A stretch of DNA of 47,228 nucleotides from Prevotella sp. Its GTDB lineage: Bacteria; Bacteroidota; Bacteroidia; Bacteroidales; Bacteroidaceae. The DNA lies in contig JAFRYZ010000068.1 in NCBI GenBank assembly GCA_017442825.1, positions 1-47,228 on the forward strand, given 5' to 3'. A program made the translations under genes and the position numbers. Below, in pieces: positions 14,083-46,863 of the stretch (positions are counted from its first letter, which is position 1; every line of letters begins with the position of its first letter). Under the pieces are notes generated by a model, which did no database searches, was not told the DNA's origin, and saw nothing but the letters and a program-made list of their open reading frames with translations.

Positions 14083-14115
14083 GTCAAAGGTACGATTAAG
14101 CGAGAACAATGCAAA
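14083..14115 (-). promoter_or_regulatory. upp promoter P1 inside palindromic element A
   Basis: Minus strand: TTTG (14112-14115), 19 bases, TACCTTTGAC (14083-14092). This is an exact fit to the Bacteroidetes TTTG-N19-TAnnTTTG pattern, 22 bp upstream of the upp ATG. Confidence 0.75.
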
Positions 14116-14156
14116 GGGAAATCCCAATTTCTTTTGCTTTGTAGAGCGAAAGTACC
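14084..14156 (-). repeat. Promoter-bearing palindromic element, copy A
   Basis: Imperfect palindrome running GGTACTTTCGC at one end to GCTTAATCGTACCTTTGA at the other, with CAAAGCAAAAG and CCTTTGCATTG arms around the centre. It resembles copies B (32578-32652), C (46801-46863) and, more loosely, D (46710-46780). The right arm contains promoter P1 of upp. Confidence 0.7.
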
Positions 14157-14165
14157 TACGGCGGA

Positions 14166-14199
14166 GCCAAAGGTACGAAAGAAGACGGATGTTTGCAAA
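14166..14199 (-). promoter_or_regulatory. Possible second upp promoter P2
   Basis: Minus strand TTTG (14196-14199), 20 bases, TACCTTTGGC (14166-14175). It lies upstream of element A, and GGAGYCAAAGGTACGA occurs here and again at P1, giving tandem promoter-like boxes. Confidence 0.45.
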
Positions 14200-14289
14200 C
14201 TCTATTTGTCAAAAATGGTATCAAGGTTGAATATTTTGTAATATTTAACCTAATAAATAGGTATGAAAGTCTGATTTTGGTACATAAAC

Positions 14290-14322
14290 TTTGTTGTTAA
14301 AAGGAAAATAATTACCTTTGCA
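14290..14322 (+). promoter_or_regulatory. pckA promoter
   Basis: TTTG (14290-14293), exactly 19 bases, TACCTTTGCA (14313-14322): the full Bacteroidetes consensus. Transcription would start near 14329, leaving a leader of about 75 bases. Confidence 0.8.
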
Positions 14323-14330
14323 TCCGATTT

Positions 14331-14391
14331 GGTGTGCGGACACACCGCAAGTAAATAGCTTTTTTAAGGAAAAAAGGATAAGTAACTATTT
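14331..14391 (+). promoter_or_regulatory. Structured 5' leader of pckA
   Basis: The leader begins with a tight hairpin GGTGTG-CGGA-CACACC (14331-14346). A second possible pairing is AAATAG (14353-14358) with CTATTT (14386-14391). A 5' hairpin could stabilise the transcript; no riboswitch class is recognised. Confidence 0.4.
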
Positions 14392-14404
14392 AATAAAAGA
14401 CAAA

Positions 14405-16018
14405 ATGGCAAAGTTAGATTTGACACAGTATGGCATTACCGGTTCTACCGTGATTGCCCACAATCCATCGTATGAGTTCCTCTTTGAGGAAGAGACCAAG
14501 GCTGAGCTAACGGGTTATGACAAGGGTCAGAATACCGAACTCAATGCCGTCAACGTGATGACAGGTATCTATACCGGTCGTTCTCCTAAGGACAAGTACA
14601 TTGTCTGTGATGAGCAGAGCAAGGACAAAGTGTGGTGGACCACAGAGGAATATAAGAACGACAACCATCCGATGTCTGAAGAAGTTTGGGCACAGGTGAA
14701 GGACATCGCCATCAAGGAGCTTTGCAACAAGAACCTGTACGTGGTAGACGCTTTCTGCGGTGCCAATGAGGCTACGCGTTTGGCTGTGCGCTTTATCGTT
14801 GAGGTGGCTTGGCAGGCTCATTTCGTAAAGAATATGTTCATCCAGCCTACAGAAGAAGAACTTGCTAACTTCGAGCCGAACTTTGTTATCTACAATGCTT
14901 CGAAGGCTAAAGTGGAGAACTACAAGGAGTTGGGTTTGAACTCAGAGACTTGTGTTGCCTTCAACACGACCAGCCGCGAGCAGTGTATCATTAACACTTG
15001 GTATGGTGGTGAGATGAAGAAGGGTATGTTCTCTATGCAGAACTACTATCTGCCCCTGCAGGGTATCGCTTCCATGCACTGCTCTGCTAACACGGATATG
15101 GAGGGTAAGAACACAGCCATCTTCTTCGGACTCTCGGGTACAGGTAAGACAACGTTGAGTACCGACCCGAAGCGTTTGCTCATTGGTGACGACGAACACG
15201 GATGGGACGATGAGGGTGTGTTCAACTTGGAGGGTGGCTGCTATGCCAAAGTGATCAACCTGGACAAAGAGAGCGAACCTGACATCTATAATGCTATCCG
15301 CCGCGATGCCCTGTTGGAAAACGTTACGGTTGATGCTGAAGGAAAAATCGACTTCGCTGACAAGAGTGTAACAGAGAACACTCGTGTGAGCTATCCTATC
15401 AACCATATCGAGAAGATAGCCCAAAAGGTGAATGGCAAGAGTGCTGGTCCTGAGGCAAAGAACGTTATCTTCCTTTCTGCCGATGCTTTCGGCGTGCTGC
15501 CACCGGTGTCAATCTTGACTCCTGAGCAGACAAAATATTACTTCCTCTCAGGTTTCACGGCAAAGTTAGCGGGAACTGAGCGTGGTATCACCGAACCTAC
15601 TCCTACTTTCTCTGCTTGCTTCGGTCAGGCGTTCCTCGAGCTGCATCCAACCAAGTATGCTGAGGAATTGGTGAAGCGTATGGAGAAGAGTGGTGCCAAG
15701 GCATACCTCGTGAACACGGGTTGGAACGGTACTGGCAAGCGCATTTCTATCAAGGACACACGCGGTATTATCGATGCTATCCTCGGTGGTGCTATCCTGA
15801 ACGCACCTACCAAGAAGATTCCTTACTTCAACTTCGAGGTTCCGACAGAGCTTGAAGGCGTTGACACCAACATCCTCGACCCACGCGACACTTATGCTGA
15901 CGCTACTGAGTGGAATAAGAAAGCGGAGGATTTGGCTTCACGCTTCATCAAGAATTTCAAGAAGTACGAAGGCAACGAGGCCGGAAAGGCACTGGTCGCT
16001 GCAGGTCCGAAGCTGTAA
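14405..16018 (+). CDS. pckA: Phosphoenolpyruvate carboxykinase (ATP)
   Basis: 537 residues from the ATG at 14405; an in-frame ATG at 14318 would lie within the -7 box and is rejected. The enzyme interconverts oxaloacetate and phosphoenolpyruvate with ATP/ADP. In Bacteroidetes it typically runs towards CO2 fixation on the way to succinate and propionate. The P-loop [11 protein letters not shown], the kinase-2 motif [11 protein letters not shown] and the substrate-site [10 protein letters not shown] identify the ATP-dependent class. It is monocistronic: its own promoter is at 14290 and a strong hairpin follows at 16182-16218. Its last 28 bases are duplicated just downstream. Confidence 0.97.
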
Positions 16019-16077
16019 AGCATTGGGCCGAAAGCAACGAGTATTCATGCTGGTCGCTGCAGGTCCGAAGCTGTAAA
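15992..16077 (+). repeat. Direct duplication of the pckA 3' end
   Basis: The 28 bases at 15992-16019 (last nine pckA codons with the stop TAA) recur exactly at 16050-16077, 58 bp downstream. A weaker match (AAGGCAACGAG at 15969 against AAAGCAACGAG at 16031) extends the duplication leftwards with an indel between. The second copy is not preceded by a pckA reading frame and appears non-functional. Confidence 0.9.
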
Positions 16078-16170
16078 AGTTGAGAGACTATAGTCTAGAG
16101 TTTAGAGAAGCCTCCTAACCCTTGAAGGGGGGCCTTAGTTTCTAGACTCTCAACTCTCATCTCTCAACTA
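16078..16170. repeat. Imperfect inverted repeat of GAGAGTTTAGAG type
   Basis: GTTGAGAG/TCTAGAGTTTAGAG on the left pairs with TTTCTAGACTC/CTCTCAAC on the right, around a CCTCCTAACCCTTGAAGGGGGG core. A related sequence (GTTGAGAGTTTAGAGCC and a CCCCTAAAGGGG core) lies at 46514-46555. Dispersed intergenic repeat; no gene in this stretch. Confidence 0.55.
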
Positions 16171-16181
16171 TAAACTTATAG

Positions 16182-16218
16182 AAGAAGCGCTCTTCCTATA
16201 TGGGGAGGGGCGCTTCTT
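16182..16218 (+). terminator. Terminator after pckA
   Basis: AAGAAGCGC (16182-16190) pairs perfectly with GCGCTTCTT (16210-16218), extended inwards by TCTTCC/GGAGGG. It is followed by TGTTTATGTT. Most likely ends the pckA transcript. Confidence 0.7.
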
Positions 16219-16324
16219 GTTTATGTTATGGAATTTATCCGAATAAAACTTAAAAAAACGAGGTTTTAGACTATATTTTGCATAATAAAAGGTGGAAATG
16301 GCGTTTTATTTGCGGAATTCTGAT

Positions 16325-16334
16325 TAAATTTGCA
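16325..16334 (+). promoter_or_regulatory. Probable promoter -7 box for the DUF6242-murI run
   Basis: TAAATTTGCA fits TAnnTTTGCA, 22 bp upstream of the ATG at 16357. No clear TTTG is found at the right distance, so confidence is moderate. This is the only promoter-like box I see before the long plus-strand run to 25906. Confidence 0.45.
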
Positions 16335-16356
16335 GGCAAAAATTCAAAAGCAACTG

Positions 16357-17727
16357 ATGAAAAGAAACATAGCAACCGTCATCTTGGTAGTGGCAATGAC
16401 CATGATGTGCGCCTCTTGTTTGGACCGTCGTTCGAATGAAGAATATAATTTTTATGGCGATGCTGCCATTACCAGCTTCTCTTTGGGAACGGTCAACCAG
16501 TATCTGATAGGCATTAGGAAATCTACTGGCGTGAAGGACAGTCTCTACAAACAAACTTATGCCGGTTCGAACTATATTTTTAATATCGACCACGTCAACG
16601 GACTTATCTTCAATGCCGACTCGTTGCCTTATGGCACAGACCCTGCTCATATTCTTGCTACAATCACGGCTAAGAATAGTGGAACAGTGTTGCTGAAGGA
16701 CTATTTGGACGAAGACTTTTACTATTATTCTTCCAGTGATTCGATTGACTTCACAGGACCTCTTACTATCCGTGTTAATTCACAATCTGGCGAAAACCAA
16801 AGGGACTATACGGTCAAGGTGAATGTGCATCAGCAGGAGGGTGATGTCTTCAATTGGACGACAATGGGAACGGTTGCGGAGTTAGCTGTAGCTCCGACTT
16901 TCAATATCAGAGCGGCTGCAGATGATATCTATGCTCTGGTGCCGACAACAGCATTGGACCGCACGTTTGTTTATGACTTGAAGAAAAAATTGGATGGTGC
17001 TGCACCTACTGTTTATGAGCTGGGAGCTGAGGCTTATAAAAACGCTGCCGCTTTCAACGGAAAATTGTATGTCCTTGATGGTCAGCAGATGAAAGTTTTC
17101 GAGGATGGTAATCTCGTGCTGACTCAGACGGCTGATGCACAGGTGAAACGATTGTTGGGTGCTGGAGAAACGGAGTTGTATGCGCTGTCTGATGGTGGAA
17201 AGTTTTTGTCTTCTGTTGATAATGGTGTAACCTGGAAAGAGGAAATCTTCAACGACGACAAGAGTCTGTTGCCAACAGTTGATTTGAACTTCTTCTCTTA
17301 CGACGTGGAGACCAACGAGGGCATGGAACAGGTGGTGTTGGCTGGATATGTCACTGGTATCAACCGCATGATGGTTTGGTCGAAACTTTTTGAAGTGAAT
17401 ACGCAGGCTGCATGGACTTATGTCGATTTGGCAGGCGACTACCGATATGCTGCTCCGAAACTCACTGGACTGACGGTGCTGCCTTATGGCGACGAGGATA
17501 TTGCTATCGGCGTGAAAGCTGACGGCACTTACAGTAACTTCATGGTGAGCACCGATGGAGGAATCACGTGGCACACCAGTAGCCAGTATGCTTATCCTAC
17601 GGGGTTCAATAAGTCGAAGAGTGTATTCTCGGCAACGACCGACTCGAATTATTACATCTGGTTGGTGGATAACACCGGACAGGTGTGGAGAGGACGATTG
17701 AACAAAATGGGATGGGAGAAGAGATGA
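16357..17727 (+). CDS. DUF6242-like secreted/lipoprotein
   Basis: 456 residues from the ATG at 16357 (an upstream TTG-type extension begins at 16330 but spoils the signal peptide). The N-terminus KRNIATVILVVAMTMMCASC resembles a lipoprotein signal with Cys21 as acceptor. A beta-rich N-terminal domain (about 25-165) is followed by a region with repeated motifs such as DGGKFLSSVDNGVTWKEE and STDGGITWHTSS, which resemble BNR/sialidase-type beta-propeller blades. Family assignment is from recalled Bacteroidetes proteins. The role is unknown, but it is translationally coupled (ATGA overlap) to the DUF6089 gene and precedes uppS and bamA, hinting at an envelope role. Confidence 0.7.
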   Translation: MKRNIATVILVVAMTMMCASCLDRRSNEEYNFYGDAAITSFSLGTVNQYLIGIRKSTGVKDSLYKQTYAGSNYIFNIDHVNGLIFNADSLPYGTDPAHILATITAKNSGTVLLKDYLDEDFYYYSSSDSIDFTGPLTIRVNSQSGENQRDYTVKVNVHQQEGDVFNWTTMGTVAELAVAPTFNIRAAADDIYALVPTTALDRTFVYDLKKKLDGAAPTVYELGAEAYKNAAAFNGKLYVLDGQQMKVFEDGNLVLTQTADAQVKRLLGAGETELYALSDGGKFLSSVDNGVTWKEEIFNDDKSLLPTVDLNFFSYDVETNEGMEQVVLAGYVTGINRMMVWSKLFEVNTQAAWTYVDLAGDYRYAAPKLTGLTVLPYGDEDIAIGVKADGTYSNFMVSTDGGITWHTSSQYAYPTGFNKSKSVFSATTDSNYYIWLVDNTGQVWRGRLNKMGWEKR

Positions 17728-18416
17728 AAGCTGCCGTTATCTACATATTGTTGTTGCTTGCCGTTCTGCCTGTTAGGGCGCAGGACGACATGGAGTACCG
17801 CATGGAGGTGGGTGCTGGCGGTGGTCTGATGGGATATTTGGGCGATTTCAACGGAAATCTAACGAAAGACCTGCAGCCGATGGGAACGGTTTTGCTGCGA
17901 TATAATTTCGATACGTATAAGACGATGAAACTGAACGTCAGCTACGGAAAACTGAAAGGAAACTCGAAGGATGTGGAAACATACTATCCACCGTATGCCA
18001 ACAATCCCTATAAGGTGGATAACTCGCTGATTGACGTGGGGATGACGTTCGAATATAATTTCCTTCCCTATGGTACAGGGAAGGAGTATCGAGGAGCAAA
18101 ACGATTGGTGCCGTTCGTATTCGGAGGCTTTGGAGCAACGTTTGTCAGCCTGAAGAATAGTGAAAAGAAGAGTGTCTTTACAGCAAATGTACCGATAGGT
18201 ATCGGATTAAAATATAAAGTGGGTGACAGGATGAATGTCGGATTGGAGTGGGCGATGCACTTCTCGTTGAGTGACGAACTCGACGGTGTAAAAGACCCGT
18301 ACGGCATTCCAAGCAAGGGTGCATTCAAGAATACTGATTGCTATCACACCCTGCAGGTAACTTTCTCCTATAGTTTCATGGCTAAATGCCGCGTATGTCA
18401 TAACCAAGATGAGTAA
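17724..18416 (+). CDS. DUF6089-like outer-membrane beta-barrel protein
   Basis: 230 residues from the ATG at 17724, which overlaps the preceding stop as ATGA. Signal peptide about 1-19 ([13 protein letters not shown]). The mature protein shows alternating strands typical of small OmpA/PorT-type barrels ([54 protein letters not shown]). After the last strand comes a short tail with a CxxC pair ([11 protein letters not shown]), unusual for an outer-membrane barrel. It overlaps the uppS start by 8 bp. Commonly found between DUF6242 and uppS/bamA in this order; function not established. Confidence 0.75.
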
Positions 18417-19143
18417 TAACAACAGCATAAATGTTCCGCAACATATTGCCATTATCATGGATGGTAATGGACGTTGGGCAATGGAACAAGGTAAAGAACG
18501 CACATACGGTCATCGGGCTGGTGTGGAAACGGTACGGCGCATCACGGCGGAGTGTGTGAGGATGGGAGTGAAATATTTGACGCTCTACACCTTCTCTACC
18601 GAGAATTGGAACCGACCTTCAGACGAGGTGGCTACGCTCATGGGACTGGTGCTTTCATCGTTGGAGGATGAAATATTCATGAAGCACAACGTCCGTTTTC
18701 GCGTAATAGGCGACATGAATCGGTTGCCAGAAGATGTACAGCAGAAGTTGCGCGAGACGGAAGAGCATACGGTGAAGAATGATGCTATGACAATGGTAGT
18801 GGCGCTGAGCTACTCCAGCCGTTGGGAAATTACAAATGCTGTGAAGGAAATCGTACAAGAGGTGCACGAAAAAGGAAAAATGCCTCAAGTGACAGAGGAG
18901 TTTATCAGTCAGCACTTGCAGACCAATTTCATGCCCGATCCTGACTTGATGATTCGTACCGGAGGCGAACTGCGCATCTCAAATTATCTGCTATGGCAGA
19001 TAGCTTACAGCGAGTTGTATTTCTGTGATACCTATTGGCCAGACTTCAGAGAGGAAAACCTTCACATGGCGATAGAAAGCTATAATCAAAGGCAACGCCG
19101 TTACGGAAAGACGGAAGAACAGGTAGAGAACGGAAAATTGTAA
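18409..19143 (+). CDS. uppS: Isoprenyl transferase (undecaprenyl diphosphate synthase)
   Basis: 244 residues. Condenses isopentenyl diphosphate units onto farnesyl diphosphate to make the C55 carrier for peptidoglycan and polysaccharide synthesis. The cis-prenyltransferase signature IMDGNGRWA with catalytic Asp18, the [11 protein letters not shown] motif and the C-terminal [25 protein letters not shown] region are all present. It starts inside the end of the DUF6089 gene and is followed by bamA after 19 bp, so it belongs to the envelope operon. Confidence 0.95.
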
Positions 19144-19162
19144 AGAATGAAAAGATAGACCG

Positions 19163-21784
19163 ATGAATTTCGCTTATATATATAATAAGGTATATGTGTT
19201 GCTGGTCTTGCTTTGTGCTTTTGGCATACAAGCAAGGGCGCAGGAGAAGATAGTGAACCCTTCTGTTAGCTATTCTGATAACGCTCGCGAGGTGGTTATC
19301 GGAGGGTTGGCTGTTTCGGGGGTGCAAGGCTACGAAGACTTTGTGTTGACAAGTATCTCTGGATTGGCAGTAGGACAGCGGATAGAAATGCCGGGTAGTC
19401 AGATTACACAGGCTGTGAAGCGTTACTGGAAGCACGGATTGTTCTCCGACGTGGCTATTTCAGCAGATTCTATTGTTGGTGATACGGCATACCTACATAT
19501 CTATTTGAAACTCCGTCCGCGCGTCTCTTCTATCAATTACATCGGATTGAAGAAAAGTGAGCGTGAGGATTTGGAGCAGAAACTCGGTATCATCAAAGGG
19601 GGACAGATTACACCGAACATGACAGCCCGTGCTAAGTTGATAGCTCAACGTTATTTTGAGGATAAGGGTTACAAGAATGCAGATATCAATATCTATCAGC
19701 GCGACGATGTGTCGAACGAGAATCAGGTAATTCTATACGTTGATGTTGATAAGAAGCAGAAAATTAAAGTTAAGCAAATCGTTATTGAGGGGAATGACAA
19801 ACTGACCGACAAGAAATTAAAGGGTGGACTGTTCAGAAAAGGGGCTTTCAAGAAACTTCACGAAACGGGCAAGTTCTCTAGTTTTCTCAAGTCGAAGAAA
19901 TATACACCGGAACGTTGGGCAGAAGATAAAAAGAATGTTATCGAAAAATACAACGAAAACGGATATCGTGATGCTGTCATTGTGAAAGACAGTGTCTGGA
20001 ACATCGACGACAAGCATGTGGGAGTCTATCTGAAGATTGACGAAGGCCAGAAATACTACCTGCGCAATGTGACTTGGGTGGGTAATACGGTTTATTCAAC
20101 GGCTCAATTGGACAATATCCTTGATATGAAGAAGGGTGATGTATATAACCAGAAGCTCTTGAACAAGCGTCTGACCGAAGATGACGATGCTGTGGGTAAT
20201 GCTTACTGGAACAATGGTTACCTTTTCTACAATCTGCAACCTACCGAAGTGAACATCGTCGGAGACTCCATTGACCTTGAAATGCGTATTTTCGAAGGGC
20301 AACAGGCCCACATCAACAAGGTGCGCATCAATGGTAATACACGTATCTATGAGAATGTGGTGCGCCGTGAGTTGCGTACCAAGCCGGGTGACCTCTTCTC
20401 GAAGGAAGCTCTTAGTCGTACTGCACGTGAATTAGCTTCAATGGGACATTTCGATCCAGAGGCTGTCAGCCCTGATGTCAAACCCAATTATGAAGACGGA
20501 ACGGTGGATATCAACTGGAACCTGAAACAGAAGTCGAACGACCAAATTGAGTTCTCGTTGGGTTGGGGACAGACGGGAGTTATCGGTCGTGTAGGTCTGA
20601 AACTGAACAATTTCTCCATGGCAAACCTGTTCAAGAAGAAAGGTGAGCGACGTGGCATCATGCCGATAGGCGATGGTGAAGTCATTTCGTTGGGCGTGCA
20701 GACAAATGGTCGTTACTACCAGTCGTACAATGCTTCTTATTCCACGGGTTGGCTCGGTGGTAAGCGTCCCAATCAATTTAGTGTCGGTGTTTCCTATAGT
20801 AAAATGACGTCAGTATCGGACAACTACTACAATAGTGCTGTCATGAACAACTACTGGAATTACTATGGTGGAGTAGGCAGTTTTGGTACAAACAATTACG
20901 AAAACTACTACGACCCGGACAAGTATATCCAGATGTTGGGGGCTAATATTGGGTGGGGTAAGCGTCTGCGTTGGCCTGACGACTATTTCACATTGTCGGT
21001 ACAGTTAGCCTACACCCGCTACATGATGAAGAACTGGAACTACCTGATGATTACGAACGGAGCTTCCAACAACTTGAATATGAGTATCGCGTTAAATCGT
21101 ATTTCTACCGACAACCAACTTTTCCCACGTCGAGGTTCTGAGTTTACGGTTTCGCTGACTCTCACACCGCCATGGTCAGTGTTCAACAATAAAGACTATG
21201 CCAATCTTGCAAAGGATGTCAACTCTTCAACTTATCAGTCAGAAGTTCAGGAAAAATACCGTTGGATTGAATACCACAAGTGGAAGTTCAAGTCAAAGAC
21301 TTATACAGCTCTGACAGGAGGACAGAAATGCTTTGTGTTGATGACGCGTATAGAAATGGGTCTTTTGGGTTCGTATAATAAACACAACAAGTCGCCATTT
21401 GAAACATACTATGTTGGTGGTGACGGTATGAGCGGCTATTCATACGGCTATTCGGAAGAAACGATTGGTCTGCGTGGTTATGAGAATGGTTCTATCGGAT
21501 ATCCTACTTACGCATACGACCGCTTTACACTGGAACTTCGCTATCCGTTCTTGCTCGGCAACACTACCATCTATGGTCTTGGCTTTGTAGAGGCAGGTAA
21601 CGCATGGCAGGAAATCTCAGACTTTAATCCGTTTAAGATGAAGCGGTCTGCTGGTATTGGTGTGCGTCTCTTCCTGCCAATGGTGGGTATGATGGGTATT
21701 GACTGGGCATACGGCTTCGATAAAGTATCCAATGGTTCACGTGGCGGAAGCCAGTTCCATTTTGTGCTCGGACAAGAATTCTAA
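19163..21784 (+). CDS. bamA: Outer-membrane protein assembly factor BamA
   Basis: 873 residues. A signal peptide (about 1-27, ending QARAQ) is followed by a series of POTRA domains (about 45-450; for example VEGNDKLTDKKLKGG-like and VRINGNTRIYENVVRREL segments) and a C-terminal 16-stranded Omp85 barrel (about 460-873). The barrel region shows GLRGYENGSIGYPTYA and FVEAGNAW motifs and ends with phenylalanine (HFVLGQEF), as expected for substrates and members of the BAM machine. It inserts beta-barrel proteins into the outer membrane. Position directly upstream of the skp genes is conserved widely. Confidence 0.95.
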   Translation: MNFAYIYNKVYVLLVLLCAFGIQARAQEKIVNPSVSYSDNAREVVIGGLAVSGVQGYEDFVLTSISGLAVGQRIEMPGSQITQAVKRYWKHGLFSDVAISADSIVGDTAYLHIYLKLRPRVSSINYIGLKKSEREDLEQKLGIIKGGQITPNMTARAKLIAQRYFEDKGYKNADINIYQRDDVSNENQVILYVDVDKKQKIKVKQIVIEGNDKLTDKKLKGGLFRKGAFKKLHETGKFSSFLKSKKYTPERWAEDKKNVIEKYNENGYRDAVIVKDSVWNIDDKHVGVYLKIDEGQKYYLRNVTWVGNTVYSTAQLDNILDMKKGDVYNQKLLNKRLTEDDDAVGNAYWNNGYLFYNLQPTEVNIVGDSIDLEMRIFEGQQAHINKVRINGNTRIYENVVRRELRTKPGDLFSKEALSRTARELASMGHFDPEAVSPDVKPNYEDGTVDINWNLKQKSNDQIEFSLGWGQTGVIGRVGLKLNNFSMANLFKKKGERRGIMPIGDGEVISLGVQTNGRYYQSYNASYSTGWLGGKRPNQFSVGVSYSKMTSVSDNYYNSAVMNNYWNYYGGVGSFGTNNYENYYDPDKYIQMLGANIGWGKRLRWPDDYFTLSVQLAYTRYMMKNWNYLMITNGASNNLNMSIALNRISTDNQLFPRRGSEFTVSLTLTPPWSVFNNKDYANLAKDVNSSTYQSEVQEKYRWIEYHKWKFKSKTYTALTGGQKCFVLMTRIEMGLLGSYNKHNKSPFETYYVGGDGMSGYSYGYSEETIGLRGYENGSIGYPTYAYDRFTLELRYPFLLGNTTIYGLGFVEAGNAWQEISDFNPFKMKRSAGIGVRLFLPMVGMMGIDWAYGFDKVSNGSRGGSQFHFVLGQEF

Positions 21785-32553: not shown

Positions 32554-32556
32554 GTT

Positions 32557-32579
32557 CCTTTACGGGCAAGCCGTGAAGG
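32557..32579 (+). terminator. Hairpin after the M16 protease gene
   Basis: CCTTTACGG (32557-32565) pairs with CCGTGAAGG (32571-32579), one G-T pair, loop GCAAG. It begins three bases after the stop. A related hairpin links the promoter elements at 46780-46806, so it may belong to the element rather than being only a terminator. Confidence 0.5.
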
Positions 32580-32652
32580 TACTTTTCGTACGACAAAGCA
32601 AAGAAAAAAAAAGTTTTTCTTTGCTTTGTCGTCGCTTAATTGTACCTTTGCA
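32578..32652 (+). repeat. Promoter-bearing palindromic element, copy B
   Basis: The centre is an 18-bp perfect stem: CGACAAAGCAAAGAAAAA (32591-32608) and its complement at 32614-32631, with a five-base loop. The left end is GGTACTTTTCG and the right end CGCTTAATTGTACCTTTGCA. Closely similar to copies A and C. Its right arm is the metK promoter. Confidence 0.85.
32620..32652 (+). promoter_or_regulatory. metK promoter
   Basis: TTTG (32620-32623), exactly 19 bases, TACCTTTGCA (32643-32652). TTTG lies within the right arm of the palindrome. Transcription would begin about 12 bases before the ATG at 32672, leaving no room for a SAM riboswitch. Confidence 0.8.
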
Positions 32653-32671: not shown

Positions 32672-33928
32672 ATGCCATATCTTTTTTCTTCAGAATCTGT
32701 GTCGGAAGGACATCCCGACAAAGTTGCCGACCAAATCAGCGACGCGTTGCTTGACCAATTTTTGGCTTACGACGATAAGGCGCACACTGCCATTGAGTCG
32801 TTTGTGACCACTGGACAGGTCGTCATCATGGGAGAAGTGCGCTCCGATGTCTATATCGATTTGCAGACTATTGCCCGCAATACCATCAACCGTATCGGCT
32901 ATACCAAGGCCGAATACCAATTCGATGGCAACTCCTGTGGTATTATGACTGCTATTCATGAGCAGAGTGACGACATCAACCGAGGTGTAGAGCGTGAAGA
33001 GGAGGACAATCAGGGGGCTGGTGACCAAGGTATGATGTTCGGTTATGCCACGACGGAGACTGACTCCTATATGCCTGTTTCGCTCGACTTGGCGCATTTG
33101 ATTGTGCGGACGTTGGCTGATATCCGCAAGGAAGGTAAGGTGATGACTTATCTCCGTCCCGATGCCAAGAGCCAGGTGACAGTGGAATACTCCGACGATA
33201 ACATACCACAACGTATCGTTACCATTGTTGTCTCTACCCAGCACGACGAATTTGACCCAGATGAGCAGAAGATGTTGGCACAAATCAAGGAGGATGTGAA
33301 GAACATCCTGATGCCTCGCGTTAAAGCACAACTGGGCGAAAAAGAACTGCAACTCTTCAAGGGAGAGATTGATTATAAAGTAAATCCCACGGGCAAGTTT
33401 GTTATCGGAGGACCTCATGGCGATACCGGACTGACGGGTAGGAAGATAATCGTTGATACTTACGGTGGTAAGGGTGCTCATGGTGGTGGTGCCTTCTCTG
33501 GCAAAGACTCATCGAAAGTTGATCGCTCAGCAGCTTATGCCGCACGTTATATAGCCAAGAACATGGTGGCTGCTGGTGTAGCCGACGAAATGCTGGTGCA
33601 GTTAGCCTATGCCATTGGTGTGGCACAGCCTGTCAGCATCTATGTGAACACCTATGGCAGAAGTCATGTTCAGATGAGCGACGGCGAAATAGCAGAACAG
33701 ATTGGTAAGATGTTCGATTTGCGTCCGAAAGCTATCGAGCGTATGCTCAAGTTGCGTCAACCTATGTATTTGGAAACGGCAGCCTACGGACACATGGGGC
33801 GTAGGAATGAGGTGGTGAAAAAGACGTTCACCAGTCATTACCATGAAACAAAAACTATCGACGTGGAACTCTTTACGTGGGAGAAGTTGGATAAGGTAGA
33901 GCAAATCCGCCAGCAATTCGGTCTTTAA
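32672..33928 (+). CDS. metK: S-adenosylmethionine synthase
   Basis: 418 residues. Makes SAM from methionine and ATP. Motifs: [18 protein letters not shown] near the N-terminus, [30 protein letters not shown] and [19 protein letters not shown], which includes the P-loop-like and metal-binding residues. It is about 30 residues longer than E. coli MetK, mostly through an insert near 160-200, as in other Bacteroidetes. Driven by promoter element B; the DUF4271 gene begins 56 bp later. Confidence 0.96.
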
Positions 33929-37945: not shown

Positions 37946-37978
37946 TTTGTGTTATCTTCGACTTTCACTATCTTTGCA
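37946..37978 (+). promoter_or_regulatory. kduI promoter
   Basis: TTTG (37946-37949), exactly 19 bases, TATCTTTGCA (37969-37978). It starts just after the tRNA terminator and leaves a leader of about 80 bases before kduI. Confidence 0.8.
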
Positions 37979-39794: not shown

Positions 39795-39821
39795 TGTCAT
39801 GATATAGACGTTAATCAATAA

Positions 39822-39853
39822 TTAGGGGCGACTCCTTTCGGAGCCGCCCCTAA
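39822..39853. terminator. Bidirectional terminator between kduD and hup
   Basis: TTAGGGGCG-A-CTCC, loop TTTC, GGAG-C-CGCCCCTAA: a near-perfect 13-bp stem with one mismatch, between two convergent genes. Confidence 0.85.
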
Positions 39854-39875
39854 TAAAAATCTTTACAGATTTAGA

Positions 39876-40148: not shown

Positions 40149-40197
40149 AATTTTGATTATTTAATGAAATGATTAGTGAATTGTTTGAAAAAACTTT

Positions 40198-40230
40198 CGC
40201 AAATATAGAAGATAGTTTCCATAAAACAAA
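40198..40230 (-). promoter_or_regulatory. hup promoter
   Basis: Minus strand TTTG (40227-40230), exactly 19 bases, TATATTTGCG (40198-40207), about 50 bp before the hup ATG. Confidence 0.75.
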
Positions 40231-40312
40231 CAAAAAATAGAAAAAAGTGAAGAAAAACCCGAAAAAAATCCTTAATCCAGTTGTTTTTATGCCTTTTCAA
40301 TGGTTTTTTTCG

Positions 40313-40322
40313 TATTTTTGCG
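40313..40322 (+). promoter_or_regulatory. Probable rhomboid-gene promoter -7 box
   Basis: TATTTTTGCG fits TAnnTTTG. No good TTTG lies 19 bases upstream. Leader of about 65 bases to the ATG at 40393. Confidence 0.45.
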
Positions 40323-40392
40323 CCGCTAAAGCGATTGTGCATGCTTGCAGACAATCAGCTTGTAAACAACTGTTTTCAAAGATAATAACGGT

Positions 40393-41316: not shown

Positions 41317-41349
41317 TGCTAATCTGTTCATAATAACAACAGCAAGCAC

Positions 41350-42438
41350 GTGAAGAAAGTCATCATCTGGACAGTAGCTGTTCTCAACATCATCCTCATT
41401 TTTATGATGTTGGCGGTAGGCTATAGCGGATACCTCAATCCCTTGTCGCACCCGATGTGGGCAAGTTTAGGGTTGTTTTTTCCCTTGTTCTTGTTGGCAA
41501 ACGTCTGTTTCGTGGCGTTCTGGTGCATTTTCCGTTGGCGTATGCTTTGGCTTCCCGTTCTGGGTTTCCTCCTTTGTTTTCCCCCGTTGCGACTCTATTT
41601 TCCCTTGAATCCTCCCTCTTCCCCCCCCGAAGGATCCATCAAGGTGTTGTCCTATAATGTCATGGGCTTCGACAGTCGTCACATGGAAGAAAACGAAGTC
41701 AATCAGATTGCCGAATACGTTGTCGAGAGCGATGCCGACATCGTCTGTTTGCAAGAATCCGGCAAGTGGGGCAAATGGGGACAGCGCATCGACTCCATGT
41801 TGCAGGCACGCTATCCCCACTATGTAGCCACCCCCCATCCAGGCAAAAGTCCCGACCATCTGTCTGTCTATAGTCGTTTTCCTGTCCTCAGTTCTGAGAT
41901 GATTCCCTTCGAGTCGAATCAGAATTTCAGCATGGCTTACGTGCTGAATGTCAACGGCGAGCGTGTGTTGGTTGTCAACAACCACTTAGAGAGCAATAAA
42001 CTCAGCTACGACGACAAAGACAGTTTCGACCTGATGACGCGTGGCAAACTGTCCAACGACTCAGCCAAACATGAAACGAAGCACATCTTCGACAAACTGG
42101 CAGAAGCCCTGAAGAAACGTGCTCCGCAAGCTGATGCTGTGGCAGCCTATATCCAAAACTACCGCGACAAGGGTATGAGTGTCATTGTCTGCGGCGACTT
42201 CAACGACAGTCCGCTTTCCTACACCCACAGGAAGGTGTGCGACGGACTTACCGACTGCTATGTCTCCAGCGGAAACGGTCCTGGTTTCACCTATCATCAG
42301 AACCGCATCTATGTGCGCATCGACAACATTTTCTGCTCCGACGACTGGAAACCCTACGCTTGCAAAGTGGATACAAAAGTGGCGCAATCCGACCATTATC
42401 CTGTTGTTTGTTGGCTCAAAAAGCAGCCAAAACGATAA
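41350..42438 (+). CDS. Membrane-anchored endonuclease/exonuclease/phosphatase-family protein
   Basis: 362 residues starting with GTG at 41350, chosen because it supplies the basic N-terminus and first helix. Three membrane helices (about 4-25, 39-62, 66-82) precede the EEP domain (about 97-360) with SYNVMGFDSR, DIVCLQESG, GDFNDSP and the final SDHYPVVC motif. Family members hydrolyse phosphodiesters in nucleic acids, sphingolipids or inositol phosphates. Anchoring in the membrane with the domain probably outside suggests a phospholipid or polymer substrate, but this is inference. Probably co-transcribed with the rhomboid gene. Confidence 0.85.
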   Translation: MKKVIIWTVAVLNIILIFMMLAVGYSGYLNPLSHPMWASLGLFFPLFLLANVCFVAFWCIFRWRMLWLPVLGFLLCFPPLRLYFPLNPPSSPPEGSIKVLSYNVMGFDSRHMEENEVNQIAEYVVESDADIVCLQESGKWGKWGQRIDSMLQARYPHYVATPHPGKSPDHLSVYSRFPVLSSEMIPFESNQNFSMAYVLNVNGERVLVVNNHLESNKLSYDDKDSFDLMTRGKLSNDSAKHETKHIFDKLAEALKKRAPQADAVAAYIQNYRDKGMSVIVCGDFNDSPLSYTHRKVCDGLTDCYVSSGNGPGFTYHQNRIYVRIDNIFCSDDWKPYACKVDTKVAQSDHYPVVCWLKKQPKR

Positions 42439-42464
42439 AAATTGCATAATAAAGCGGTGGAAAT

Positions 42465-42497
42465 TTTCTTAAAAACTAAAAAATAGCTATCTTTGCA
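42465..42497 (+). promoter_or_regulatory. secDF promoter
   Basis: TTTC (42465-42468), 19 bases, TATCTTTGCA (42488-42497): one base off the -33 consensus. Confidence 0.6.
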
Positions 42498-42511
42498 CGC
42501 TCATTGTGGAC

Positions 42512-42535
42512 TGTCGGCAGGCGACACCTCCGACA
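42512..42535 (+). promoter_or_regulatory. Hairpin in the secDF leader
   Basis: TGTCGG (42512-42517) with CCGACA (42530-42535), extended by AGG/CCT with a one-base bulge, loop CGACA. It lies 44 bp before the secDF ATG. It could affect message stability or translation; no known regulator is recognised. Confidence 0.4.
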
Positions 42536-42578
42536 ACCGAAGCAAAGGAATTCACAATTAAACAATAAATAAACAAAA

Positions 42579-45500
42579 ATGCAGAACAAAGGATTAGTAA
42601 TTTGTATTGCCGTCTTACTGACGCTTGCAAGCATCTTCTACCTGTCTTTCTCTGTAGCCACAAGCTACTACGACAGCCAGGCAGCTAAGATTGAAGACCC
42701 GATTAAGCAGCAGGACTACAAGGACTCTGTGAAGTATCTGGGCATCTACTCTTACCAGAAGTGTTTGGAGACGCAGATTGGTCTTGGACTTGACCTGAAA
42801 GGCGGTATGAACGTCATCCTTGAAATCTCGGTTCCTGACGTACTCGACGTACTGGCAGACCACAAGACAGACCCTGTCTATGTGAAGTCTATGCAGGAAG
42901 CCAAGAAAGCCGAGGAGACCAGTCAGAGCGATTTCATCTCGCTCTTCATCGATGCTTACAAGAAGAATTCCAACGGCGGTCGTCTGGCAACAGTCTTTGC
43001 CACCCAGCAGTTGAAAGGTAAGGTAAGCACACAGAGCAGCGACAGCGAAGTAGAGAAAGTGCTTCGCGATGAAGTAGCTGCCGCTATCGAGAACTCCTAC
43101 AATGTTGTACGCAACCGTATCGACAAGTTCGGTGTCGTACAGCCCAACATTCAGAAACTCGAAGGACAGGACGGTCGTCTCATGGTCGAGATGCCAGGTA
43201 TCCGCGAGCCGGAGCGTATGCGTAAGCTCCTGCAGGGTAGTGCCAACCTTGAGTTCTGGGAGACGTATAACAACCAGGAAATTCAGCCCTATCTCGTACA
43301 GCTCGACCAGCGTCTGGCAGGTGGTGGTTCAGCTGCTACCGACACGACGGCTACCGACACCACGAAGGTTGCCCAGGCTGCCGACAAGAAGGCTGCTGAA
43401 GCCCAGCCGGCTGCCAAGCTCCAGTTGAAGAACAAGGACGCTGCCGCTGCTGCTGGTAAGAGCGAAACCAAGGAGTTGGAGGCAGCCAAGAAGCAGCACC
43501 CGCTGCTCGCTCTCTTGCAGACCATTCCTGGCGATGCCCTCAGTCTAGTAGGATATGCCCATGTTCGCGATACTGCTGAAATCAATAAGGCTTTGCAGTC
43601 AGCTGTTGCCAAGCAGGTTCTTCCTTCCGACGTCCGTCTGTTGTGGAGTGCCAAGCCTATCGAGAGCAACAAGAATGTCTATGAGCTCCATGCCCTGAAG
43701 GTGACCACCAGCGACGGTCGCGCTCCGTTAGAGGGCGATGTCGTTACCGATGCCAAGGACCAGTTCGACAACTTCGGTCGTCCTGAGGTTTCCATGTCGA
43801 TGAACGGCGACGGTGCCCGTGCCTGGGCTCAGCTCACCAAGGCTAACATCGGTAAGGCAGTAGCTATCGTCCTCGACGGCGTAGTCTATTCTGCACCGCG
43901 TGTCAACGGTGAGATTACCGGTGGACAGTCGTCTATCAGCGGTAGCTTCACCATCGAAGATACCAAAGACCTTGCCAACACGCTGAAGTCTGGTCGTATG
44001 CCGGCTCCTGCCCGTATCGTACAGGAAGAAGTTGTCGGTCCTACCCTCGGTGCACAGTCTATCCAGCAGGGTATCATGTCGTTCATCATTGCCTTCGTGC
44101 TGCTGATGATCTACATGGTCGTCATGTACGACTTCATTCCGGGTATGCTTGCCAACTGTGCACTGTTGCTCAACCTCTTCTTCACGTTGGGTATCTTGGC
44201 ATCGTTCCAGTCGGCACTCACCATGCCGGGTATTGCAGGTATCGTGCTGACACTCGGTACGGCTGTCGATGCCAACGTGCTCATCTACGAACGTATAAAA
44301 GAGGAAATGCGCGCGGGTAAGGGCATCAAGCAAGCGCTGCAGGCTGGTTACAGCAATGCCTTCTCCGCTATCTTCGACTCCAACTTGACTTCGTTGATTA
44401 CCGGTATCATCCTTTTGGTAACTGGTACAGGTCCTATCCGCGGTTTCGCTACGACATGGATCATCGGTATCGTCTGCTCGTTCTTCACCGCTGTCTTCCT
44501 CACCCGTCTCGTCTATGAGAACCGTCTGAGCAAGGACAAGTGGCTCGGTCAGAAGTTCTGCACCGCCCTGTCGAAGAACCTCATGCAAGGCACTCACTTC
44601 CGTTTCATGTCTATCTACAAGAAGACCTTCATCGTCGTTGCCATCGCCATCGTTGGCTTCTGCGTAAGTTTCGCTGTTCGCGGTCTGAGCCAGAGCATCG
44701 ACTTCACGGGTGGTCGCAACTATGTTGTCACCCTCGACAAGCCTGTTCAGGTGGAAGATGTCCGTAAGGTCATCGAAGGTGCCTTTATCAACTCTATCGG
44801 CGAGAAGGCAGGTCAGCCTGCCAACACCAGCGTCATCGCCCTTGGTACCGACGGTAAGACCATCCGTGTTTCTACCAACTGGAACATCGAGTCTAACGAT
44901 GTGAAGACCGACGATGAGGCTGAGACCATCCTTTACAACACACTGAAGAAAGCCAACCTCGTCAGCCAGAAGAACGTTGAGTCGTTCAAGAACCCTGACG
45001 TACGCGAAGGCGGCAGTATCATCAGCAGTGCCAAGGTAGGTCCGTCCGTAGCTAAGGATATCACCTATGGTGCTATCATCAGTGTAATCCTGGCGTTGAT
45101 CTTCATCTTCATCTACATCCTCATCCGATTCCGTAACGTCGGTTTCTCTGTCGGTTCCATCGTGGCATTGGCATGCGATACCGTCATCGTCATCGGTCTC
45201 TATTCTGTGATGTGGGGCTGGGCACCGTGGTCACTCGAAATCGACCAGACCTTCATCGGTGCTATCCTGACCGTGATCGGTTACTCTATCAACGACAAGG
45301 TGGTAGTATTCGACCGTATCCGTGAGAACATGAAGTTGCATCCGAAACAGGATCTGCAGACCCTGTTCAATGACTCTATCAACCAGACGTTGGCACGTAC
45401 CATCAACACCTCTGTATCAACCCTCATCGTGCTGCTCTCGATCTTCATCCTCGGTGGTGACAGCATCCGCAGCTTCGCATGGGCAATGATTCTTGGTGTC

Positions 45501-45587
45501 GTCTTCGGTACGCTGTCTTCCATCTTCATTGCTTCGCCCGTTGCCTATCTGGTACTCGGTCGCAAGATCAAGGAGACAGAGGAATAA
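42579..45587 (+). CDS. secDF: Protein translocase subunit SecDF (fused)
   Basis: 1002 residues, a natural SecD-SecF fusion. Uses the proton gradient to help pull exported proteins through SecYEG. The SecD part (about 1-665) has the first helix, the LGLDLKGGMNVILE motif (72-76), the periplasmic P1 domain and helices 2-6 (VGPTLGAQSIQQGI, GTAVDANVLIYERI). SecF starts near 668 (THFRFMSIYKK) with IDFTGG and INDKVVVFDRIRENM. Residues about 248-305 form a long Ala/Lys/Thr-rich low-complexity linker, longer than in E. coli SecD. Own promoter and terminator; it belongs functionally with Skp and BamA. Confidence 0.96.
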   Translation: MQNKGLVICIAVLLTLASIFYLSFSVATSYYDSQAAKIEDPIKQQDYKDSVKYLGIYSYQKCLETQIGLGLDLKGGMNVILEISVPDVLDVLADHKTDPVYVKSMQEAKKAEETSQSDFISLFIDAYKKNSNGGRLATVFATQQLKGKVSTQSSDSEVEKVLRDEVAAAIENSYNVVRNRIDKFGVVQPNIQKLEGQDGRLMVEMPGIREPERMRKLLQGSANLEFWETYNNQEIQPYLVQLDQRLAGGGSAATDTTATDTTKVAQAADKKAAEAQPAAKLQLKNKDAAAAAGKSETKELEAAKKQHPLLALLQTIPGDALSLVGYAHVRDTAEINKALQSAVAKQVLPSDVRLLWSAKPIESNKNVYELHALKVTTSDGRAPLEGDVVTDAKDQFDNFGRPEVSMSMNGDGARAWAQLTKANIGKAVAIVLDGVVYSAPRVNGEITGGQSSISGSFTIEDTKDLANTLKSGRMPAPARIVQEEVVGPTLGAQSIQQGIMSFIIAFVLLMIYMVVMYDFIPGMLANCALLLNLFFTLGILASFQSALTMPGIAGIVLTLGTAVDANVLIYERIKEEMRAGKGIKQALQAGYSNAFSAIFDSNLTSLITGIILLVTGTGPIRGFATTWIIGIVCSFFTAVFLTRLVYENRLSKDKWLGQKFCTALSKNLMQGTHFRFMSIYKKTFIVVAIAIVGFCVSFAVRGLSQSIDFTGGRNYVVTLDKPVQVEDVRKVIEGAFINSIGEKAGQPANTSVIALGTDGKTIRVSTNWNIESNDVKTDDEAETILYNTLKKANLVSQKNVESFKNPDVREGGSIISSAKVGPSVAKDITYGAIISVILALIFIFIYILIRFRNVGFSVGSIVALACDTVIVIGLYSVMWGWAPWSLEIDQTFIGAILTVIGYSINDKVVVFDRIRENMKLHPKQDLQTLFNDSINQTLARTINTSVSTLIVLLSIFILGGDSIRSFAWAMILGVVFGTLSSIFIASPVAYLVLGRKIKETEE

Positions 45588-45601
45588 GCAACCCCTTCCC
45601 T

Positions 45602-45623
45602 CCTCCCCCCTTATGAGGGGAGG
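45602..45623. other. GC-rich hairpin after secDF
   Basis: CCTCCCC (45602-45608) pairs with GGGGAGG (45617-45623). Resembles other CCCCTCC...GGAGGGG intergenic repeats in the window (16110-16130, 46530-46560). Confidence 0.5.
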
Positions 45624-45634
45624 GGATATATATA

Positions 45635-45672
45635 TAAAATAGGTGAACGCATTTTTGCGTTCACCTATTTTA
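45635..45672. terminator. Bidirectional terminator between secDF and the ADP-ribosylglycohydrolase gene
   Basis: A 17-bp perfect stem (TAAAATAGGTGAACGCA and its complement) around TTTT, between convergent genes, A/T-rich at both flanks. Confidence 0.9.
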
Positions 45673-45676
45673 TATT

Positions 45677-45721
45677 GTCCTTAAGGTCTCTAAGGTCTTT
45701 AAAGTCCTTAAGGTCCTTAAC
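45677..45721. repeat. Tandem 9-bp repeat, five units
   Basis: GTCCTTAAG, GTCTCTAAG, GTCTTTAAA, GTCCTTAAG and GTCCTTAAC run without spacing. The last unit contains the stop codon of the minus-strand gene ending at 45717. Confidence 0.9.
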
Positions 45722-46514
45722 CCCCAACCAACCCCTCCTTCTGTTTTTCCAAGAACTGGTCGAGGATGTCCAGCATGTCTTTCGGCAGGTAGCTCACCGC
45801 CTGCTCCACCAAGTGGCTGGGCACCGGGTAGTAGGCTTCGGCAATACTTCCCGCTATGGCAGCCTTCGTGTCCGTGTCGCCGTCGCACATCACCGCCAGG
45901 CGTATCGTCTCCTCGAAGTTGTTCGCGTTGATAAAGCAACGAATAGCCCACGGCACCGTCTCCTGGCAGATGCTGTCGAAGTGTCCCGTGCTGCCGATGC
46001 GCATGATGTCGCGCAGGGGCAGGATGTCGTAGCCGAAGAATTTTTTTACTTTCCGTGCCAGTTCCTCCTTTTTGAAGCGCATGTGGCGCAGCCAGAGAAT
46101 TACCTCCGCTATGCACTGTGCCCCGCGGATGCCCTCCGAGTGGCAATGCGACACCTCCGCACTCCGCTGGGCCTCCATGAGCACCTGCTTGTAGTCGTCG
46201 AAGAGCCAGCCCACCGGACTCACCCTCATGGCAGCCCCGTTGCCGCAGCTGTTGTTCGGCAGAGCCTTCTCCGACTCTATCCAGTCCAGGAAGCGCGGAC
46301 CGTAGCCCCCCATCGGGTTCGGGTAGCGGCGGCACCACTCCAGCAGCGCGTCTCTGTAAGGCTTCCCGTTCATAATGGCATCAGCCACCGCCACCGTACA
46401 GATGGTGTCATCCGTGTAGCTGCAGTCGTCAGTAAATAACTTGAAATCCTTCTCTGGTGGTCCGCCGAATTCAAAGCGCGAACCAACAATGTCACCAATA
46501 ATTGCGCCGATCAT
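45717..46514 (-). CDS. ADP-ribosylglycohydrolase-family protein
   Basis: 265 residues. The all-alpha ADP-ribosylhydrolase fold is recognised by its metal-binding motifs: TDDT at 34-37 (CSYTDDTICT), and the late CDGDTDTKAAIAGSIAEAYYPV. Members remove ADP-ribose from proteins or small molecules, including DraG, which reverses regulation of nitrogenase; the substrate here is unknown. Stands alone on the minus strand. The stop codon is inside the 9-bp repeat array. Confidence 0.9.
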   Translation of the reverse strand: MIGAIIGDIVGSRFEFGGPPEKDFKLFTDDCSYTDDTICTVAVADAIMNGKPYRDALLEWCRRYPNPMGGYGPRFLDWIESEKALPNNSCGNGAAMRVSPVGWLFDDYKQVLMEAQRSAEVSHCHSEGIRGAQCIAEVILWLRHMRFKKEELARKVKKFFGYDILPLRDIMRIGSTGHFDSICQETVPWAIRCFINANNFEETIRLAVMCDGDTDTKAAIAGSIAEAYYPVPSHLVEQAVSYLPKDMLDILDQFLEKQKEGLVGG

Positions 46515-46560
46515 AGTTGAGAGTTTAGAGCCCCCCTCTAATCCCCCCTAAAGGGGGGAG
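46514..46560. repeat. Dispersed intergenic repeat, GAGAGTTTAGAG type
   Basis: GTTGAGAGTTTAGAGCC and a CCCCCCTAAAGGGGGG hairpin resemble the repeat at 16078-16170. It starts at the first codon of the ADP-ribosylglycohydrolase gene. Confidence 0.5.
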
Positions 46561-46581
46561 GAGGGTTTATGGTTTAGGGGG

Positions 46582-46616
46582 GTAATTATCAATTGTCAAT
46601 TATCAATTATCAATTG
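46582..46616. repeat. Heptamer array (TCAATTR), five units
   Basis: GTAATTA, TCAATTG, TCAATTA, TCAATTA and TCAATTG, just past the 3' end of tRNA-Arg (minus strand). Same unit as 28176-28210. Confidence 0.85.
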
Positions 46617-46623
46617 AATAAAG

Positions 46624-46695
46624 TAGTCCCACCGGGAATCGAACCCGGATCTAATCTTTAGGAGAGACTTATTCTATCCATTGAACTATGGGACC
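46624..46695 (-). tRNA. tRNA-Arg (anticodon CCT), CCA not encoded
   Basis: Minus strand cloverleaf: acceptor GGTCCCA/TGGGACT (one G-T), D-arm, anticodon stem AGTCT/AGATT around CTCCTAA giving CCT, T-arm CCGGG-TTCGATT-CCCGG. The discriminator A is followed by CTT, so CCA must be added by the nucleotidyltransferase, unlike tRNA-Gln here. Reads AGG. Confidence 0.93.
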
Positions 46696-46709
46696 AGCCG
46701 TTTACAAGT

Positions 46710-46780
46710 TGCAAAGGTAGTGAAAGTCGAGCGCAGAACAAAACAAATTCATTTGTTTTTTTGCCGAGACGCATCCTACC
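46710..46780 (-). repeat. Promoter-bearing palindromic element, diverged copy D (tRNA-Arg promoter)
   Basis: Minus strand TTTG (46739-46742), exactly 19 bases, TACCTTTGCA (46710-46719), 15 bp before tRNA-Arg. Arms AAACAAAT and ATTTGTTT flank the centre. The outer end GGTAGGATGCG corresponds to GGTACTTTTCG of copies A and B, but the spacer is different. Confidence 0.65.
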
Positions 46781-46806
46781 TTCACGGGGCTTGTCCCCGT
46801 AAAGAT
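46779..46806. other. Linker hairpin between elements C and D
   Basis: ACGGGG (46784-46789) pairs with CCCCGT (46795-46800), extended by CTT/AAG. The same kind of hairpin precedes copy B at 32557-32579. Confidence 0.6.
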
Positions 46807-46863
46807 ACGATTAAGTGAGCACAAAACAAAGAATTAGTTCTTTGTTTGTCGAGCAAAAGTATC
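46801..46863 (-). repeat. Promoter-bearing palindromic element, copy C
   Basis: Perfect 10-bp arms AAACAAAGAA/TTCTTTGTTT around TTAG. Minus-strand TTTG (46827-46830), 19 bases, TATCTTTA (46800-46807). Spacer contains CACTTAATCG, nearly as in A and B. Points towards tRNA-Arg. Confidence 0.8.

Follow-up and report, generated by a model that had tools for sequence, protein, structure and literature searches.

A dispersed hairpin repeat with a promoter-like right end at gene starts in Prevotella, probably spread among Bacteroidales

BrickBuilt, a miniature inverted-repeat transposable element (MITE) of Porphyromonas gingivalis, has a leader followed by repeated 23-nt units and a tail, and occurs in 19 forms in strain ATCC 33277; it is located 49–591 nt from coding sequences, has bidirectional promoter activity, and was proposed as a putative mobile promoter (PMC4596501). 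Correia elements of Neisseria are MITEs with sigma-70-like promoters, found mostly immediately upstream of genes (PMC10969869). Repetitive extragenic palindromes (REP) of the GTAG and CGTC superfamilies are 20–40 bp long and carry an unpaired tag (GTAG or CGTC) at one of their ends; the CGTC repeats, whose reported hosts include Bacteroidetes and other phyla, apparently have no dedicated transposase (PMC3733652). The σABfr promoters of Bacteroides carry TTTG around −33 and TAnnTTTG at −7 (PMC7366714). Here, we describe a family of short hairpin repeats whose right end has the form of such a promoter. The family was followed up from a 47,228-nt stretch of Prevotella sp. DNA (contig JAFRYZ010000068.1, assembly GCA_017442825.1), called the window below, where copies precede upp, metK, and a tRNA-Arg gene.

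According to our analysis, the element is probably a non-autonomous hairpin repeat with a σABfr-type promoter as its right end, which spread among Bacteroidales and took over existing promoters in Prevotella. The genome searched was the draft assembly of the window itself (G000; 2.31 Mb, 69 contigs, 79% complete). The closest named relatives of its MetK are from Prevotella (79–85% protein identity), including P. ruminicola and several bins from ruminant samples; Prevotella is common in the rumen. The right-end 18-mer gave 82 matches in G000 at ≤2 mismatches, versus none for the reversed control, and the right-end pattern at ≤3 mismatches was found four times in the window (0.12 expected from shuffles). 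From 53 segments (212 kb) around the 18-mer sites, 89 copies were collected at ≤3 substitutions, and 38 chosen full copies were used for a covariance model, R1. The R1 search of G000 yielded 103 matches at E ≤ 0.01; the element being close to a palindrome, at least two places were scored on both strands. The unit is 60–75 bp long, dispersed, and has no gene of its own, as expected of a MITE. The sequence-only reading of the window had named four copies and proposed a profile search of this and related genomes; that search confirmed all four, at places agreeing to within two bases (R1 or sequence reading), and the copies beyond them are well above chance. To that reading the follow-up adds that units stand in tandem arrays, that there is a second subfamily, that the arms covary, and that relatives occur in other Bacteroidales families and copies on viral-catalogued contigs.

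From left to right, the element consists of an outer GGTAC (or GATAC), CTNNCGCTCG, the left arm, a loop, the right arm, CTCGCTTAATCG, and TAYCTTTG; the consensus ends are GGTACT on the left and TACCTTTG on the right. The distance from TTTG to TAYC is 19 or 20 bp in 85 of 89 own copies despite variable sequence and length of the arms, in 58 of 65 copies of three congeners, and in 15 of 16 copies on viral-catalogued contigs. The right end thus has the σABfr signature (TAnnTTTG at −7, TTTG near −33) and would represent a complete promoter, with the −33 TTTG in the right arm, a spacing of 19–20 bp, and the −7 box formed by its final eight bases. After the G of this box, similarity fades except for a preference for C and then A (44/60 and 40/60). 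The shared spacer, pointed out for three of the window copies, is conserved across the family. The outer 5 bp are exact complements (terminal inverted repeats) in 35 of 63 copies; the pairs were GGTAC/GTACC (23), GATAC/GTATC (11), mixed GATAC/GTACC (5), and GGTAC/GTATC (1). A second subfamily, ending in TCGRYTTGCACTACCTTTG, gave 32 matches in G000 at ≤3 mismatches versus 2 for the reversed control. Its outer pair, judged by eye, is GGTAG/CTACC, and both subfamilies are mixed in some arrays.

Position relative to genes was analysed for 60 array ends (clusters of copies), with an ATG counted if it opened a reading frame of at least 80 aa and with random points taken from the same segments. The array end was within 60 nt of such an ATG in 50 of 60 cases, versus 1435 of 6360 random points (Fisher p 5e-23). 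Among the ten ends beyond 60 nt, those at C58:36177, C63:2952, and C63:69739 (contig:position in G000) are followed by a second-subfamily unit, and the one at 46817 of the window is followed by element D (listed below) and tRNA-Arg. The array end at C50:70321 lies 12 nt before another tRNA-Arg, and that at C8:43211 lies 42 nt before tRNA-His. The upstream neighbour gene was divergent in 31 of 51 cases, and 9 more had no neighbour within 500 nt. The genes behind the elements, examined by eye, have seemingly unrelated functions.

Members of an array mostly succeed each other in steps of 73–87 bp. The left end motif was recognised in 34 of 60 first copies, preceded by a −7-like box in 16 of 60, and unrecognised in 26, about eight of which retain, by eye, the right arm only; the test was a motif match, which also misses the metK copy, whose left end has an indel, and likewise some others of the 26. 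Copies on the upstream side tend to be eroded at their left ends, as would be seen if selection acted on the promoter half only. Of the 63 copies whose left end was recognised, 39 have a −7-like box before that end, at a gap of 5–26 bases, mostly 11–15. It had been suggested from the window copies that the left arm ends in a near −7 box on the other strand, as if the element were once bidirectional. The outline of such a box is present (56/63 start with TA and 24/63 end with TTCG), but not one copy has TANNTTTG with TTTG at 19–21 on the other strand (0/63); a bidirectional promoter at the left end was rejected on this count, and former bidirectionality is not supported. A hairpin at the junction between units was likewise rejected: it looks palindromic by eye, yet no more than 3 of 39 had an inner stem of at least 3 bp, and shuffles gave 7%.

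The pairing of the arms is conserved. In an alignment of 38 of the 89 own copies made without structure (A2), standard pairs occupied 88% of pair cells, and the covariation score was 0.380; shuffling reduced it to 0.188, and sliding to 0.157 or less. For congeners and other families, alignment was guided by the model, a procedure biased towards structure; in these alignments, double changes were found in 17 of 18 pairs for 65 copies of three congeners (score 0.411 vs. 0.162 shuffled) and in 16 of 18 pairs for 31 copies of other families (A4; 0.520 vs. 0.194). An internal loop with mismatches, CTCACGCTCG facing CTCGCTTAYTCG, is seen repeatedly in the aligned copies and in the other families. 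Folded as single-stranded DNA, the five window copies had z values from −7.8 (metK copy) to −1.6 (46875 copy). G-T mispairs numbered 97 overall and A-C mispairs 70 (22 vs. 9 in other families), and these counts favour a DNA form without proving it. Quasi-palindrome template switching repairs imperfect palindromes by itself and would yield compensatory changes without selection. That the hairpin is kept in this way, with selection on the promoter only, is unlikely in our judgement: the right-arm-only first copies are in line with it, and the mismatched loop, which recurs uncorrected even in other families, is not. Covariation in two stems that enclose a conserved internal loop, together with the G-T excess in other families, could also indicate a structured RNA (leader, 3′ untranslated region, or small RNA) that overlaps promoters by chance. 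This we consider very improbable, because the element lies upstream of the presumed transcription start, its upstream neighbour is divergent in most cases, and overall A-C mispairs are not far behind G-T. In addition, Rfam matches in the window were two tRNAs only, and the three Rfam matches in 8 element loci (E up to 5) were all far below the gathering score.

Orthologous promoters were compared for presence of the element, as the sequence-only reading had advised for metK. Any upstream model match (E ≤ 0.05) was found in 8 of 55 metK loci, the sampled promoters being mostly element-free. Among the 19 loci keeping the upstream M16 peptidase gene, one had the full element (L192) and one the right half only, behind a terminator-like hairpin (L061); in L064, L190, L194, and L203 a terminator-like hairpin with an ordinary box was seen by eye, and the remaining 13 were element-free, 11 of them with just 13–65 nt between the genes. 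For mnmA and pheS, 59 and 53 genomes, respectively, gave a match, and the best 30 loci for each gene were compared, own locus included. At the promoter, the element was matched in none of 29 congener mnmA loci and, weakly on the same strand, in 2 of 29 congener pheS loci (L342 and L339). One further pheS locus (L334) had a full copy farther upstream on the opposite strand, and G031, outside the 30-locus set, has an element before pheS. TANNTTTG was present within 130 nt upstream in 30 of 30 pheS and 18 of 30 mnmA loci against a background of 7%; the element thus stands where other genomes have an ordinary box. Its right box would take the place of the −7 box of relatives, and the gene would be read from the element's own −33/−7 pair. 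In three congeners, 5 of 36 element-driven genes were orthologous to the 57 in G000. These common genes, as well as the conserved spacer and position, are what a regulon would produce, i.e., an operator and promoter under one factor or alternative sigma factor, selected gene by gene with no spread. We find this quite improbable, since sampled orthologues are mostly element-free, the arm sequence shifts while pairing is kept, the genes look functionally unrelated by eye, and the left end is unrecognised in 26 of 60 first copies (with the indel cases, metK included, among them).

The family is distributed patchily. About 82 candidates per genome were scored, with stricter filters, in the congener sample and 20–25 in the order-wide and class-wide samples; with limited candidates and stricter filters, the counts in these samples are lower bounds. 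At least one match was found in 29 of 35 congeners and ten or more in 21, the range being 0 to 78 per genome; six had no match, including G003, G016, and G026, which are 99% complete. Beyond the genus, matches were found in 3 of 24 genomes of other genera, in 17 of 246 other genomes of the order-wide sample, and in none of the 197 other genomes of the class-wide sample. All 15 copies fetched from G124, G212, and G331 end in TANNTTTG. In G234 and G241, 6 of 16 copies end in the box and 10 hold the internal motif without it, at various gene borders. The box-less copies make the shared spacer look like a mark of the family and not a requirement of the promoter, and from all five genomes the internal motif, more than the promoter, appears common to all copies. 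Longer repeats of about 100 nt were also observed near gene ends in other Bacteroidales families (L259 in G241, L260 in G234); those of L259 contain the internal motif of the element and no −7 box. When the L259 and L260 clusters were scanned by eye, no adjacent transposase was recognised.

A degenerate 20-mer search showed that 16 stretches from 14 viral-catalogued contigs carry elements; the exact 18-mer had no match among viral contigs, and no phage or plasmid record in INPHARED or PLSDB was matched. Seven proteins scanned on these contigs, including ParA, SNF2/methylase-like, and HU-like proteins, are compatible with a phage or plasmid, and some of the contigs may be plasmids rather than phages. 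Several of them (L228, L235, and L276–L287; 15–145 kb) encode ParA or a 1626-aa SNF2/methylase-like protein. A gene for a 200-aa protein has one unit upstream in L265 and L266 and none in L267, where the protein is 95% identical, the DNA further upstream is the same, and a neighbouring element-like match is kept. The element-free site reads ...TTCGTAACTTTGCAGCC before this gene. Since a more distant outgroup, L269, shares the 15-mer TTCGTAACTTTGCAG with L267, comparison of these sequences suggests that the empty state is probably ancestral. In occupied L265 and L266 the unit is flanked by a box on each side, and the downstream sequence in L265, CAGCCAATATGG, is identical to the empty site.

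Of the spreading promoter module proposed from the window, the dispersed family, the promoter-shaped end, the patchiness by species, and the element-free orthologous sites were all found; movement itself is what we infer. Several observations weigh against such spread. At the site just described, a clean target-site duplication is not seen, since some 9 bp ahead of the left box are also different and the boxes are TACC or TATC, versus TAAC in empty L267. This site is equally well explained by exchange of a promoter segment, and L267 may have lost a unit instead of the others gaining one, ATTTCTTCG resembling the TTATTCG end of the element; the difference may therefore reflect insertion followed by change, exchange, or loss. 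It is also a single close pair: of three more tries, one gave three occupied relatives and two returned just the query contigs. Element–ATG distances differ from those at 15 other promoter-like sites (Kolmogorov–Smirnov p 0.02), and TTTG at 18–22 is missing in 6 of 15 copies of G124, G212, and G331 (present in 9). Two of five measures of the A2 alignment were within shuffles (23/500 and 85/500), as was the A4 count of further pair types (255/500). The 5 of 36 shared genes, for which no expectation was computed, may indicate some inheritance or preference. Finally, no mover was identified in a search limited to Y1_Tnp.

In that search, the Y1 transposase (PF01797), the only transposase family looked for, was not found in G000 at its 79% completeness and was also absent from G008, G019, and G020, which hold 18–33 copies. 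Across 22 genomes (G000–G021), copy number did not track the Y1 count (Spearman 0.12, p 0.58), and mobilisation by a RAYT/IS200-type enzyme was rejected on these grounds. The absence of Y1 from G000 is in line with passive spread by homologous or microhomology recombination between promoters sharing TTTG and TAYCTTTGCA ends, helped by transfer on large replicons. So are the apparent exchange of a promoter segment at the element-free site, with the right break in the shared CTTTGCAG, the right half alone behind a terminator-like hairpin in L061, and the copies on viral-catalogued contigs. We regard passive spread as a possible, though somewhat doubtful, sole explanation: the kept pairing of both arms is not accounted for by it alone, nor are the G234 and G241 copies without a −7 box. 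For the spreading hairpin repeat that we favour, the element would be retained as a promoter and spread as a hairpin, moved either by an enzyme that works on the folded strand or by passive exchange between promoters sharing −33/−7 boxes; both routes fit the data. A bolder version, which we put forward tentatively and think rather unlikely, is a new kind of mobile element: a folded single strand recognised by its conserved mismatched loop would land on host −7 boxes and swap a promoter with each insertion, dozens having been rewired in some Prevotella, possibly carried in by large plasmid- or phage-like replicons.

The window contains five element copies and one right-half copy. These and the adjacent features are as follows (last line, repeats elsewhere in G000):
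13405..14061, minus strand: upp, uracil phosphoribosyltransferase (Pfam UPRTase, 8.2e-41)
14085..14156, minus strand: element A, before upp (R1 83.5 bits, E 3.8e-16)
14168..14199, minus strand: additional promoter-like pair, TTTG-N20-TACCTTTG, close to the left end of element A on its upstream side (sequence reading)
32578..32650, plus strand: element B, between the M16 peptidase gene and metK (R1 72.9 bits, E 1.4e-13)
32672..33928, plus strand: metK (Pfam S-AdoMet_synt domains)
37946..37976, plus strand: right-half copy of the second subfamily, TTTG-N19-TATCTTTG (second-subfamily pattern, 2 mismatches)
46623..46695, minus strand: tRNA-Arg(CCT), downstream of the C1-C2-D row (ARAGORN, Rfam)
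46712..46780, minus strand: element D, third in the row, second subfamily, GGTAG...CTACC (R1 28.4 bits, E 0.0074; second-subfamily pattern, 1 mismatch)
46800..46863, minus strand: element C2, second in the row, spacing 19, right box TATCTTTA (R1 60.9 bits, E 1.1e-10)
46875..46936, minus strand: element C1, first of the three-unit row before tRNA-Arg, spacing 20 (R1 68 bits, E 2.1e-12)
C1:207379, C62:5974, C60:6336, C20:26962, C14:21627, C65:85160 (loci L004, L024, L019, L009, L039, L057): TAATCGCGAAGCGCTTGCAGAGCGAAGCGGCGCAAGAA-type repeat beside elements

Element A has the outer pair GGTAC/GTACC, hairpin arms, CTCGCTTAATCG, and the right end TACCTTTG; its TTTG-N19-TACCTTTG pair is followed by the upp ATG 23 nt downstream, and we presume that it drives upp. 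The pair at 14168..14199 is a candidate for the older upp promoter, and its retention would be expected if that promoter was displaced. Element B is a near-perfect hairpin (DNA fold z −7.79) with TTTG-N19-TACCTTTG and the metK ATG 21 nt downstream, and presumably drives metK. The fifth copy, C1, was absent from the earlier list; TTTG, 19 bases, and TAYCTTT were confirmed in all four copies on that list (with TATCTTTA as the C2 box), as were the neighbours, upp and metK by Pfam and tRNA-Arg by ARAGORN. The box of element D ends 16 nt before tRNA-Arg, and its R1 score is weak, the model being that of the first subfamily. The right-half copy is located 91 nt upstream of a KduI/IolB-like gene (Pfam).

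Some further repeats were observed beside the elements. A second palindromic repeat, roughly TAATCGCGAAGCGCTTGCAGAGCGAAGCGGCGCAAGAA, was seen by eye immediately left of several of them, as if nested (positions in the last line above). The window has a simple repeat, TCAATTATCAATTATCAATT, at 46580–46616, and like strings stand directly before the left box at C11:3203 and C61:113603. An inverted pair of elements (L022/L023, C61:113586–115080 of G000) flanks a transposase-like gene that is broken and has the ends GGGTCACCTGYATAACC; on both sides ATTATTTATCGTACCTTTGACC is mirrored, and the gene may be ISL3-like. Another inverted pair was found in G034 (C20:105400–106252, L145).

If the favoured reading is right, promoters of housekeeping genes in Prevotella have been recurrently replaced by a spreading repeat, whose arrival would be tolerated because it is itself a promoter. 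Promoter turnover in bacteria could then be tested directly, with many copies per genome, element-free orthologous promoters, and variation between species. The element may further help to locate promoters in Prevotella drafts and supply promoters for genetic work in the genus. No description of the family was found in the open-access literature, judged mainly from titles and the openings of abstracts, with subscription papers outside the scope.

Like BrickBuilt, the element belongs to Bacteroidales, is intergenic and dispersed, and has no transposase inside; BrickBuilt ends such as GAGACCTTTGCA contain ACCTTTG too. Unlike BrickBuilt as presented in the compared sections, it is a 60–75 bp hairpin with fixed −33/−7 spacing and one direction, within 60 nt of an ATG in 50 of 60 cases, and there is no tandem 23-nt direct repeat between a leader and a tail (PMC4596501). 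It shares with Correia elements the nature of a promoter-carrying MITE near gene starts; their promoters are sigma-70-like, and the compared part of that account describes no element ending in the −7 box itself (PMC10969869). REP palindromes are likewise short and at times clustered, but the present consensus, with the ends GGTACT and TACCTTTG, has no GTAG or CGTC tag (PMC3733652), and no RAYT (Y1) transposase was found in G000 (79% complete). The −33/−7 boxes are the same as in σABfr promoters, whose published consensus, in the compared sections, is without a shared spacer or hairpin (PMC7366714). The idea of mobile promoters and REP palindromes that seem transposase-less are already known; what sets the present element apart from the compared parts of these accounts is that its end is the −7 box itself.

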